Positions 1 through 33,381 of a stretch of DNA of 64,000 bases are shown here, piece after piece. Within the stretch, counting starts at the first letter, position 1. The number at the start of each line of letters is the position of its first letter. Position numbers and translations under genes: made by a program. This DNA comes from Roseovarius sp. A-2 (GTDB lineage Bacteria; Pseudomonadota; Alphaproteobacteria; Rhodobacterales; Rhodobacteraceae), in contig NZ_BDIY01000001.1 of the NCBI RefSeq assembly GCF_002072155.1, positions 186,001-250,000 on the forward strand, written 5' to 3'. The notes beneath the pieces are model-generated. The model worked only from the letters and a program-made list of their open reading frames with translations, did not search any database and was not told the origin of the DNA.

Positions 1-2569
<2,569 letters not shown>

Positions 2570-30392: not shown

Positions 30393-30985
30393 ATGAATTT
30401 CGGTACCTGGCTCGAACGCACCGCACCGGCCGTGCCCGCACTTGTGGTGCAGGGCGTGACACCCGGCGACCGGGTCGCGCTCTTCATGGGCAATGCGCCC
30501 GAACCTGCTGGCGCTCTACCGCATATGGTATGTCGGTGCCGCCGCCGTACCGATCAACGCCAGGCTGCACGGCACCGTGGCCGCCTGGATCATCGACGAC
30601 GCCAGCGATGCCGCGCTGCGCGGCGGTTGGCTCTGGACCGGCGATTTGGGGCGGATGGACGCGTAGGGCCATATCGCGTTGCAGGACCGCTCGAAGGACA
30701 TGATCATCTCGGGCGGCTCCAACATCTATCCGCGTGAGGTCGAGGAGGTGCTGCGCAGCCATCCTTCGGTCTCCGAGGTGGCCGGCGTGCCTGATCCTGA
30801 GTGGGGCAAGGTGGTTGGTGGCCTTCGTGGTCAAGGACGGCCACCTCAATGAGGTCGCGCTCGACGCCCACTGTCGCGCTCATATCGCCCGGTTCAAACG
30901 GCCGAAACGCTATATCGTCGCCGACAGCCTGCCCAGGAACAATTACGGCAAGGTGTTCAAGACCGATCGGCGCGCCGTTTTCAAA
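30393..30985 (+). pseudogene. Decayed acyl-CoA synthetase (AMP-dependent ligase)
   Basis: Pieces of an ANL-family acyl-CoA ligase lie in order but in different frames. They are MNFGTWLERTAPAVPAL, then TPGDRVALFMGN, then LLALYRIWYVGAAAVPINAR (frame changed), then WLWTGDLGRMDA, a TAG stop at 30664-30666, [20 protein letters not shown], a second frame change near 30810, and finally FKRPKRYIVADSLPRNNYGK. About 200 of the usual 500 or so residues remain; the adenylate-binding core (YTSGSTG to GYGxTE) is deleted. Several frameshifts, a stop and two deletions rule out a sequencing slip. The last frame stays open through the following palindromes and leader into queC, so gene callers may fuse the two. 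Confidence 0.88.
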
Positions 30986-31038
30986 CGGCGTGTCACGCGC
31001 CTTGCAAGGCGCGTCAGAAGGCCCTTGCAAGCGGCCTT
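30973..31038. repeat. Cluster of three adjacent palindromes between the pseudogene and the queC leader
   Basis: CGCCGTTT-TC-AAACGGCG (30973-30990) is an 8-bp hairpin. A 20-nt perfect palindrome at 30995-31014 reads ACGCGCCTTG followed by its complement. AAGGCC (31018-31023) pairs with GGCCTT (31033-31038) around an inner CTTGCAAG. The last two share the CTTGCAAG core. They may end transcription from the left or act as a processing or insulator element; no long U-tract follows. Confidence 0.6.
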
Positions 31039-31093
31039 TCCCTGCAATCCGCACTTGTTCCTGCGGCCCAAAGGCGTTAGATGCCCGGCGTCA

Positions 31094-31128
31094 AGCGGTC
31101 GCAGCCTACCCGCTTTAAAAAACAAGGA
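31094..31128 (+). promoter_or_regulatory. PreQ1-I (type II-like) riboswitch controlling queCDEF
   Basis: The P1 helix is AGCGG (31094-31098) with CCGCT (31110-31114). The loop starts TCGCAG (31099-31104) and leads to C31109, the position of the preQ1-pairing cytosine. After P1 an A-rich tail (31115-31122) is followed by CAAGGA. The Thermoanaerobacter tengcongensis aptamer has the same P1 length, the identical UCGCAG loop, and an A-rich tail ending ACAAGG. AAGGA at 31124-31128 is also the Shine-Dalgarno of queC (ATG at 31137), so ligand binding should hide the ribosome site and lower translation when preQ1 is plentiful. No terminator follows, which fits translational control. Confidence 0.87.
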
Positions 31129-31136
31129 CGACACCA

Positions 31137-31828
31137 TGAAGACGATAGTTATCTGCTCGGGCGGGCTCGATTCCGTGTCGCTTGCCCACAAAACCGCCGC
31201 CGAGCATGATTTGGCGGGGCTGCTGAGCTTTGATTACGGACAGCGCCACGTCAAGGAGGTGGAATTCGCCGCCGCCTGCGCGCGCCGCCTTGGCGTGCCG
31301 CACCGTGTCGTGGACATCCGCCAGATCGGGGCCGCGCTCTCGGGCTCGGCGCTTACCGATGATGTGGACGTGCCTGACGGCCATTATGCCGAGGACACGA
31401 TGAAAATCACCATCGTGCCCAACCGCAACGCCATCATGCTGGCCATTGCTTTCGGCATGGCCGCGGCGGAAAAGGCGGATGCGGTCGCCACCGCCGTGCA
31501 CGGCGGGGATCACTTCATCTATCCCGATTGCCGTCCCGGCTTTGTCGCTGCGTTTCAGGCGATGCAGGATGCAGCATTGGAGGGTTACGCCGACATCCGC
31601 CTATACACCCCCTATCTGCACGGCTCCAAGGCCGATATCGTGGCTGATGGCGCACGCCACGGCACGCCATTTGCGCAGACATGGTCCTGCTACAAGGGCG
31701 GCGCGCGGCAGTGCGGGCGCTGCGGCACCTGCGTGGAGCGGCGCGAGGCGTTTCATCTGGCGGGGGTGGATGATCCAACCGACTACGCCGATCCCGACTA
31801 TTGGCGGCAGGCGGTGGAGGGGCACTGA
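31137..31828 (+). CDS. queC: 7-cyano-7-deazaguanine (preQ0) synthase
   Basis: A 230-residue QueC that converts 7-carboxy-7-deazaguanine to preQ0 using ATP and ammonia. The ATP-pyrophosphatase loop is SGGLDS at residue 8, followed by SFDYGQRHVKE. NRNAIMLAIA and GGDHFIYPDCRPGF lie mid-protein, and the zinc-binding cysteines are in SCYKGGARQCGRCGTCVERR near residue 190. It is the first gene of the preQ1 operon and directly follows the preQ1-I riboswitch. Its reading frame is open far upstream through a pseudogene, but the riboswitch and Shine-Dalgarno fix the start at 31137. Confidence 0.97.
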
Positions 31829-32184
31829 TGTACCGGATCACCAAGGAATTCCACTTCTCCGCCTCGCATCAACTGTTCGGCCTGCCGCCCGAGCACCAAT
31901 GCGCCCGGCTGCACGGGCATAACTATATCGTCGTGGTCGAACTGACTGCGGCCGATCTCAATCCGCATGGCTTCGTGCGCGACTATCTCGATCTGGCCGA
32001 GTTGAAGCATTATATCGACGATGAGCTGGATCACCGTCATCTGAATGACGTGTTGGGCGACGATTGCGTGACCGCAGAGCGCATGGCGAGACATCTCTTT
32101 GACTGGTGCCGCGCCCGCTGGCCCGAAGTGACGGCGATCAAGGTCAGCGAGACGCCCAAGACATGGGCGGAATACCGGCCGTGA
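31828..32184 (+). CDS. queD: 6-carboxy-5,6,7,8-tetrahydropterin synthase
   Basis: A 118-residue QueD of the PTPS fold that makes 6-carboxytetrahydropterin from dihydroneopterin triphosphate. Zinc ligands are His16 in HFSASHQL and the pair in RLHGHNYIV, and the acid/base part is [10 protein letters not shown] near residue 67. ATG 31828 shares one base with the queC stop (TGATG). Length and motifs are normal. Confidence 0.96.
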
Positions 32185-32903
32185 GCGAGATGATTCGCGT
32201 CTCCGAGATCTTTGGCCCCACCATTCAGGGCGAGGGCGCGCTGATCGGCGAGCCCACGGTCTTCGTGCGCACAGGCGGCTGCGATTACCGCTGTTCGTGG
32301 TGTGACAGCCTGCATGCGGTCGATGCGGAGTATCGCGCCACGTGGGTGCCGATGCCATCCGCCGCGGTGATGGCCGAGGTGGCGCGCCTTTCCGGCGACC
32401 GGCCCCTGATGGTCACGCTCTCGGGCGGCAATCCGGCGATTCAGCCATTGGGGCCGTTGATCGAGATGGGCCAATCAAAAGGCTACCGCTTCGCCATGGA
32501 AACCCAGGGCAGCGTCGCACGCGACTGGTTCGCAGGCTTGGGCATGCTGGTGCTCAGCCCCAAGCCGCCCTCGTCGGGCATGACCGTCGATTGGGCGGCA
32601 TTCGAGGACTGTCTGACCGCCGCGCACAACGCGCCGACCGTGCTCAAGATCGTGATTTTCGACGAGGTGGATTACCTCTGGGCCCGCGACGTGGCAGCGC
32701 GCTACCCGGCGCTGCCGCTCTATCTGCAACCGGGCAACCACACCCCGCCGCCGCCCGAGGATGACAGCGCACGCGTGGATCAGGACGGCATAGATGCCCG
32801 CATGCGCTGGCTGGTGGATCGGGTCATCGGCGATGGCTGGTTCGCGGCAAAGGTGCTGCCGCAACTGCATGTCATGCTCTGGGGCAACAAGCGCGGGGTT
32901 TGA
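32181..32903 (+). CDS. queE: 7-carboxy-7-deazaguanine synthase, radical SAM
   Basis: A 240-residue QueE that rearranges carboxytetrahydropterin to CDG. The N-terminus has [19 protein letters not shown], and the radical SAM cluster motif is CDYRCSWCD near residue 33. The glycine-rich SAM-binding segment is [10 protein letters not shown] near residue 78. The start is GTG 32181 overlapping the queD stop (GTGA); ATG 32190 is an alternative three codons in. GTP cyclohydrolase (FolE), which supplies the precursor, is not in the window. Confidence 0.95.
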
Positions 32904-32916
32904 AGGAGATAGGACG

Positions 32917-33381
32917 ATGAGCGACGATATCTATAAGAATCTCAAACAGTTGGGCGGCACAACGCAGGTGCCGCAACACCCCGAAGAGGCCGAGCTTGAG
33001 CGGGTTCCCAACCCGCAGGCCGATGTCACCTACAACGTGCGCTTCACCGCGCCGGAATTCACCTCGCTCTGCCCGATGACCGGCCAGCCCGATTTCGCCC
33101 ATCTGGTGATCGATTATGTGCCGGGCGACTGGCTGGTGGAGAGCAAGTCGCTCAAGCTCTATCTCACCTCGTTTCGCAACCACGGGGCGTTCCACGAGGA
33201 TTGCACGCTCACCATCGCCCGGCGGCTGGTTGAGTTTCTTGCGCCCCAATGGCTGCGCATCGGCGGCTATTGGTATCCGCGCGGCGGTATTCCGATCGAC
33301 GTGTTCTGGCAGACCGGCGCGATGCCCGAGGGCGTCTGGATTCCCGATCAGGGTGTGCCGCCCTATCGCGGCAGGGGGTGA
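32917..33381 (+). CDS. queF: NADPH-dependent preQ0 reductase
   Basis: A 154-residue unimodular QueF (YkvM type) that reduces preQ0 to preQ1, the ligand of the upstream riboswitch. The catalytic cysteine lies in [15 protein letters not shown] near residue 51, followed by the QueF signature [16 protein letters not shown] near residue 75 and FHEDCT near residue 93. ATG 32917 follows GGAG. It is the last gene of queCDEF, so the riboswitch acts as end-product feedback on the whole pathway if translation is coupled or the mRNA is destabilised. Confidence 0.97.

Follow-up and report, generated by a model that had tools for sequence, protein, structure and literature searches.

A predicted type II preQ1-I riboswitch before queCDEF in Roseovarius sp. 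A-2 and its counterparts in related Alphaproteobacteria

The window, by which we mean the whole 64,000-nt stretch of Roseovarius sp. A-2 DNA that was analysed, contains a 35-letter predicted preQ1-sensing RNA element directly 5’ of queCDEF. The ligand, preQ1, is a precursor of the tRNA modification queuosine, and the genes downstream of the element were identified by their NCBIfam matches:

31136 to 31828, + strand: queC, 7-cyano-7-deazaguanine (preQ0) synthase; TIGR00364, 170.6 bits, above the cut-off
31828 to 32184, + strand: queD, 6-carboxytetrahydropterin synthase; TIGR03367, 87.6 bits, 1.65 below the cut-off of 89.25; start placed by its overlap with the stop of queC
32190 to 32903, + strand: queE, 7-carboxy-7-deazaguanine synthase; TIGR03365, 359.2 bits, above the cut-off; putative start
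32917 to 33381, + strand: queF, preQ1 synthase (QueF-II); TIGR03139, 150.8 bits, above the cut-off; putative start

The genes form a tight operon: the stop of queC falls within queD, and queE and queF are separated from the preceding gene by 5 nt and 13 nt, respectively. The first-pass annotation had described a queCDEF operon ending in the preQ1 synthase gene, and the order and the family matches bear this out, with queD alone falling short of its model. The genome also encodes tgt, and a search of it for the queuosine precursor transporter family TIGR00697 gave no match at E<=0.001, suggesting that preQ1 is likely made at home and not imported via that family.

The leader of queC was divided into the following parts, with Tte denoting the Thermoanaerobacter tengcongensis preQ1-I aptamer of known structure that served as the reference:

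31094 to 31098, + strand: 5’ strand of P1, ‘AGCGG’, pairing with 31110-31114; the outer two pairs covary in relatives
31099 to 31104, + strand: L1 and 5’ strand of P2, ‘UCGCAG’, present in 79 of 80 queC leaders
31105 to 31108, + strand: L2 before the specificity base, ‘CCUA’; in relatives (n=79) CCTA 59, CCCA 14, CCTTA 6
31109, + strand: predicted preQ1-pairing cytosine (specificity base, C15 in Tte), preceded by A in 79 of 79 relatives
31110 to 31114, + strand: 3’ strand of P1, ‘CCGCU’, read in the sequence and from the stem-loop comparison
31115 to 31122, + strand: A-rich L3 (UUUAAAAA), of differing length among relatives; the AAAA before C is invariant in alignment A1
31123 to 31127, + strand: 3’ strand of P2, ‘CAAGG’, mapped onto P2 of Tte; in relatives (n=79) CAAGG 76, CAGG 3
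31104 with 31123 and 31102 with 31126, + strand: predicted P2 pairs G31104-C31123 and C31102-G31126, from the mapping onto P2 of Tte
31124 to 31128, + strand: Shine-Dalgarno sequence ‘AAGGA’ of queC, separated by 7 nt from the ATG at 31136

The letters and positions reported at first sight (‘AGCGG’, ‘TCGCAG’, a free C31109, ‘CCGCT’, an A-rich tail and ‘ACAAGG’, the last at 31122-31127) were all found in the sequence, as was the proposed double use of ‘AAGGA’ as the queC ribosome site; in the 79 core-bearing queC relatives, the distance from the GG to the start codon is 6-12 nt. The parts correspond to the H-type pseudoknot of the preQ1-I class (P1, L1, an L2 ending in a free C, an A-rich L3 and P2), the P2 pairs being drawn from position and letters and not from covariation, and the element lies before queuosine synthesis genes, which together with precursor-uptake genes are the usual setting of the class.

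The whole loop of Tte reads ‘UCGCAG’, and its Watson-Crick P2 pairs are G11-C30 and C9-G33. In the Tte pocket, C7-G11-C30 lies above the ligand and G5-C16 below it, C15 is the specificity base and A29 contacts the ligand; a role for U6 is described in the type I Can aptamer, and analogous contacts in the other types. Equivalents of C7, G8, A10, G11, C15, A29, C30, A31 and A32 are all present in the window, where ‘UCGCAG’ supplies C, G, A and G at positions 7, 8, 10 and 11 as these are named for Tte (PMC11625349, PMC3905878). Besides its two Watson-Crick pairs, P2 of Tte contains the non-canonical pairs G8-A31 and A10-A32 (PMC11625349, PMC3905878). The preQ1-I class is divided into types I-III, with type II present in Pseudomonadota at lower numbers, and type II has as its signature an AC that directly precedes the 3’ strand of P1 (PMC11625349). 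The element carries this signature at A31108-C31109, as do 79 of 79 core-bearing queC relatives. Type I, in which UC precedes the 3’ strand of P1 and UU follows the 5’ strand, was rejected because the letters here are AC and UC, and type III, with UU after the 5’ strand of P1 and a pyrimidine-rich stem-loop, because they are UC and ‘UCGCAG’.

Compared with the Tte type II riboswitch (PDB 3q50), the element has the same P1-L1-L2-L3-P2 order, a G-C pocket floor, the AC before the 3’ strand of P1 and a P2 strand that overlaps the Shine-Dalgarno sequence; it differs in standing before queCDEF instead of a putative transporter gene, in the varying length of L3 among its relatives, and in L2. Including the specificity C, L2 measures 5 nt here and in 73 of the 79 relatives and 6 nt in the other 6, whereas the solved type II aptamers have 4 nt (Tte) and 6 nt (Bacillus subtilis, Bsu). 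The first-pass claim of a Tte-like order and spacing held for the order but not for the spacing of L2. The type II riboswitch of the Bsu queCDEF operon shares the operon content and the AC signature, but has the longer L2 and acts by transcription termination, whereas no terminator-like site was found here (30950-31200). The E. coli type III riboswitch (PDB 8fza) also comes from Pseudomonadota, with AC at the specificity base and AAGG in P2, but it has a conserved UU in place of the UC after the 5’ strand of P1, and ‘UCGCAG’ is not pyrimidine-rich. Type III is described as almost only gammaproteobacterial and located before yhhQ (PMC10622847).

The Rfam model RF00522 aligned to the leader over 45 of 45 positions with 36.7 bits (E 3e-6; 221 bases searched), and in the whole 4.58-Mb genome, with 150 of 192 first-look candidates scored and a limit of E<=10, the leader (E 1.5e-5) was the sole match among those listed. 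Since 14 of 14 control genomes also give RF00522 matches at the loose limit of E<=10, the weight lies on the E-value and not on the presence of a match. The score falls short of the gathering score of 39, which is an annotation threshold and not a biochemical criterion, and the Rfam scan of the whole window returned nothing at gathering score. The first-pass annotation had named a sub-gathering score as a refuting outcome; it is what we obtained, in the window as well as at each of the 20 queC relatives scanned and throughout 295 family genomes, and we override it on comparative evidence only. At E<=0.1, RF00522 returned 14 rows from the 295 family genomes. Seven of the 13 non-window rows hold the element, and in the remaining six (L007, L008, L011-L014) the surrounding 3 kb shows no pattern and no que gene, so weak RF00522 matches alone are unreliable. 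At this threshold RF00522 picked up just 7 of the 21 genomes (248 searched) that were found at E<=1e-7 by a clade model, R1, made from 49 sequences with the window included, and the single genome of the same genus in that search (G278) gave no match. The preQ1-II and preQ1-III models, which describe the larger HL-out pseudoknots, had no match in the window at gathering score and none at E<=10 in 30980-31200.

A species-genome collection was scanned with this QueC, giving at least 576 confirmed relatives, and the best 80 loci, according to their record titles mainly from Rhodobacterales and Rhizobiales, were kept; in the fetched DNA their gene order is queC-D-E-F (39 loci), queC-D-E (36) or queC alone (5). 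The core lies before queC in 79 of the 80, a proportion that is not a class rate, the loci having been selected by similarity to this queC, and it is missing in L089. It reads CGGTCGCAG, one of the three L2 forms listed above, CCCG, an A-run and then CAAGG or CAGG. A 17-letter core, itself the consensus of these very leaders, was compared with the 100 nt before queC in all 80 loci, and its best ungapped match had no mismatch in 59, one in 14, three in the 6 loci with a one-base L2 insertion and eight in 1, compared with 4-10 mismatches in 1600 shuffled leaders and 5-9 for the reversed core. We rejected as evidence the identity of 0.98 in the core against 0.295 in the upstream 15 nt, because the leaders were preselected and the pattern fixed 13 of 15 columns. 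The comparison of leaders indicates that the element is not isolated but common to a queC lineage in Alphaproteobacteria, and the occurrence in this lineage, which had been flagged for confirmation, is supported by the 79 loci. One record (L073), labelled as the actinobacterium Nocardioides marinus, has a Rhodobacterales-like queCDEF with the element and is likely a mislabelled or contaminated assembly.

Compensatory changes in P1 among relatives, which the first-pass annotation had looked for, were found in part. In 23 distinct stem-loops, the second pair is C-G in 15, G-C in 7 and mismatched in 1, and the outermost pair forms in 11 (as A-U, C-G, G-C or U-A) but is unpaired in the other 12; the three inner pairs are invariant, two of them being fixed by the search pattern itself. 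The covariation of P1 was 0.236 against a shuffled mean of 0.073, its cells were paired in 88.7% against 77.3%, and 14 cells had changed on both sides against 6.5, values that 0 of 500 shuffles reached in each case. The other two of the five measures did not rise above the shuffles, namely pairs changed on both sides (2 versus 2.0, reached by 486 of 500) and further pair types (4 versus 4.5, reached by 435 of 500). The shuffles ignore the relatedness of the stem-loops, and the swap in the second pair may have happened just once, in a Roseovarius-like lineage. Slid-register controls gave covariations of 0.000-0.087. P2 and the pocket show no covariation because their letters are nearly invariant, and the nested folding of the leader was not unusual (z -0.51), as expected of a pseudoknot.

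We surveyed drawn samples of genomes for the element. The clade model R1 gave at least 27 rows in 248 family genomes, 21 of them strong (E<=1e-7); at least 15 rows in 385 class genomes, of which 6 were strong and 3 (L101, L102 and L103) were divergent and beside que genes; and at least 6 strong matches in 150 phylum genomes, all six in the window’s own class. Outside the class, the only phylum match among those listed was L167 (E 0.0099), which on reading was attributed to chance. The weak class rows L104-L109 had no que gene in the fetched stretch, and neither had five of the six weak family rows within 2 kb, the sixth being L234 of genome G246. An exact pattern search found one copy each in 17 family genomes (198 searched) and in 6 class genomes (337 searched), and the reversed control pattern matched in no row of either search. 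The element is scattered over the class and is not universal.

The pattern goes together with queC. A QueC above the TIGR00364 cut-off is encoded in 20 of the 198 family genomes (three others, G010, G034 and G051, scored below it at 91-103 bits), and the coordinates place the pattern immediately upstream of 16 of these 20 genes. The four without it are in G054, G122, G168, which is the same genome as L089, the single miss among the 80 loci, and G194, the QueC of which is just 28% identical to that of the window. Among genomes with no QueC above the cut-off, the pattern occurred in 1 of 178 (Fisher p 5.6e-19), and in this exception (G047) it lies before queF, with a Vut_1 gene (PF02592) with a sub-cut-off TIGR00697 match coming next. 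A rescan of 26 element-bearing genomes gave five extra copies; the four that were read (all but G803:C189) lie before an additional queC (L169, L175) or a standalone queF (L195, L197). Genomes G802 and G803, those of L019 and L022, have two and three copies of the pattern, with L169 and L175 before separate queC genes.

Three divergent class elements lie beside que genes. L103 (genome G571, 1501-1535, minus strand; R1 E 0.027) has the loop ‘UCGUAG’ and the tail AAAACAGGAG, with a QueD-like PTPS gene and then queE downstream. L101 and L102 both stand before queC and keep the five P1 pairs and AAAACAAGGA; one has a long L2 (AAUUCCUA plus C) and the other the loop ‘UCGCGG’. In viral contigs, a loose pattern gave 22 matches and was discarded, 20 of them having neither the core nor a que gene; the strict core gave four, of which L198 and L199 are without a que gene. 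The element occurs together with queC on two viral-classed contigs (L144, L150) and on a rhizobial plasmid (L046), and the element-queC module may be mobile.

A different arrangement was found before queF. In L123 (genome G047), L195 (genome of L090) and L197 (genome of L049), an intact element with AAGG is separated from the queF ATG by 60, 80 and 79 nt, respectively. When R1 was run over the 25 above-cut-off queF loci (of 28 matches) from 24 genomes, these three were found and the other 22 had no match at E<=1. The gene after queF was searched in two of the three (G047 and G812, not L201), and in both it is a Vut_1 gene. Hairpins are predicted between the element and queF in all three leaders, with no shuffle control, and L197 has a further in-frame ATG nearer to the element, about 31 nt after AAGG. 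At 60-80 nt from the start, AAGG cannot be the Shine-Dalgarno sequence of queF in these leaders, and its retention, as far as the letters tell, speaks for its being kept as aptamer structure. The output device there must differ from a direct masking of the ribosome site of queF. A leader open reading frame served by this AAGG was rejected by eye, there being no ATG, GTG or TTG 5-12 nt downstream; L123 has CTG. Just before queF in G246, L234 (near 1001-1028) keeps P1 and ‘UCGCAG’ with AAGG missing, and by its letters appears to be a changed or decayed copy.

The sequences directly show the hairpin, the letters of the pocket, a presumed P2 strand that overlaps the ribosome site, the gene order queCDEF and an element conserved before queC in relatives. 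We propose that the leader (31094-31128) is very probably a type II preQ1-I riboswitch, in which predicted preQ1 binding would bury the queC ribosome site and likely lower queCDEF expression. The first-pass reading, a translational preQ1-I riboswitch of the Thermoanaerobacter type before queCDEF, agrees with the fold, the pocket letters, the position of the ribosome site, the gene context and the distribution. By analogy with the solved Tte aptamer, C31109 would pair with preQ1, stacked on G31098-C31110, and ‘UCGCAG’ and ‘ACAAGG’ would close into P2 through the two pairs listed above, hiding part of ‘AAGGA’ from the ribosome. Such ligand-induced burial of the ribosome site is the device of Tte (PMC3905878). 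Once tRNA is saturated, preQ1 made by QueF would accumulate, the pseudoknot would close and less QueC would be synthesized, and queD, queE and queF might in turn be affected through polarity or coupling. That control is translational is suggested by the ribosome-site overlap together with the lack of a terminator-like site.

The same pocket could also serve a preQ0-sensing or dual preQ0/preQ1 variant with preQ0, the direct product of QueC, as the physiological ligand. The gene behind the element is mostly queC, and Tte type II binds preQ0 with a KD of 35 nM, 17-fold weaker than preQ1 (PMC10622847). However, the pocket letters are those of the preQ1-binding Tte, and in three genomes the element heads queF, for which preQ0 is substrate and not product; we give this reading a small chance of being correct. 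Action by transcription, through termination or pausing, would agree with the transcriptional type II riboswitch of Bsu and with the three queF copies, in which a device other than burying the ribosome site of queF must be at work. Against it, 30950-31200 is without a terminator-like site, and 6-12 nt separate the GG from the queC start in 79 of 79 core-bearing relatives; we consider this reading very improbable. Conserved letters that covary little might also be expected of a site recognised by a repressor of queuosine genes that binds RNA or DNA, or merely of a conserved strong ribosome site plus a hairpin. The former and the latter both leave the match to the letters of an RNA-aptamer pocket unexplained, and a pure ribosome site also leaves unexplained the intact, AAGG-keeping copies 60-80 nt upstream of queF, so we consider either extremely improbable.

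Described preQ1 riboswitches come mostly from Firmicutes, plus one or two lineages of proteobacteria, according to a study whose examined lineages included Rhodobacterales and Rhizobiales (PMC3766115). A survey of queuosine genes in 2127 alphaproteobacterial species reports the full pathway in 64%, and the word ‘riboswitch’ is absent from its main text (PMC11570991). We found no alphaproteobacterial preQ1 switch in open-licence titles and abstract openings, and the type II alignment of McCown 2014 may contain such rows; we do not claim a first description. The comparison adds to a known class a clade-wide subgroup lying below the Rfam cut-off, so that annotation by the gathering cut-off would miss the switch (0 of 20 relatives, 0 of 295 family genomes). 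We tentatively suggest, as a distinct possibility, that Alphaproteobacteria possess their own sub-cut-off preQ1-I subgroup with a 5-nt L2 and a near-frozen core, travelling with queCDE(F) and working through two output devices, burial of the queC ribosome site and a so far undescribed remote device 60-80 nt downstream of the aptamer, before queF and a queuosine precursor transporter gene. The preferred reading, a preQ1-I riboswitch before queC, points to likely feedback control of queuosine synthesis in a lineage to which Rhodobacterales and rhizobia belong. The leaders also form a naturally occurring collection of very small aptamers whose L2 length falls between those of the two solved type II structures, and in the queC and queF contexts the same aptamer apparently feeds different output devices.

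Just 5’ of the leader, 30393-31012 contains short open reading frames in differing frames that by eye resemble pieces of an acyl-CoA ligase, as in a decayed gene. A perfect 20-bp palindrome (ACGCGCCTTGCAAGGCGCGT, 30995-31014) and a second hairpin-like ‘AAGGCC...GGCCTT’ follow about 80 nt before the riboswitch, and these two are maybe an operator or the terminator of the upstream gene.
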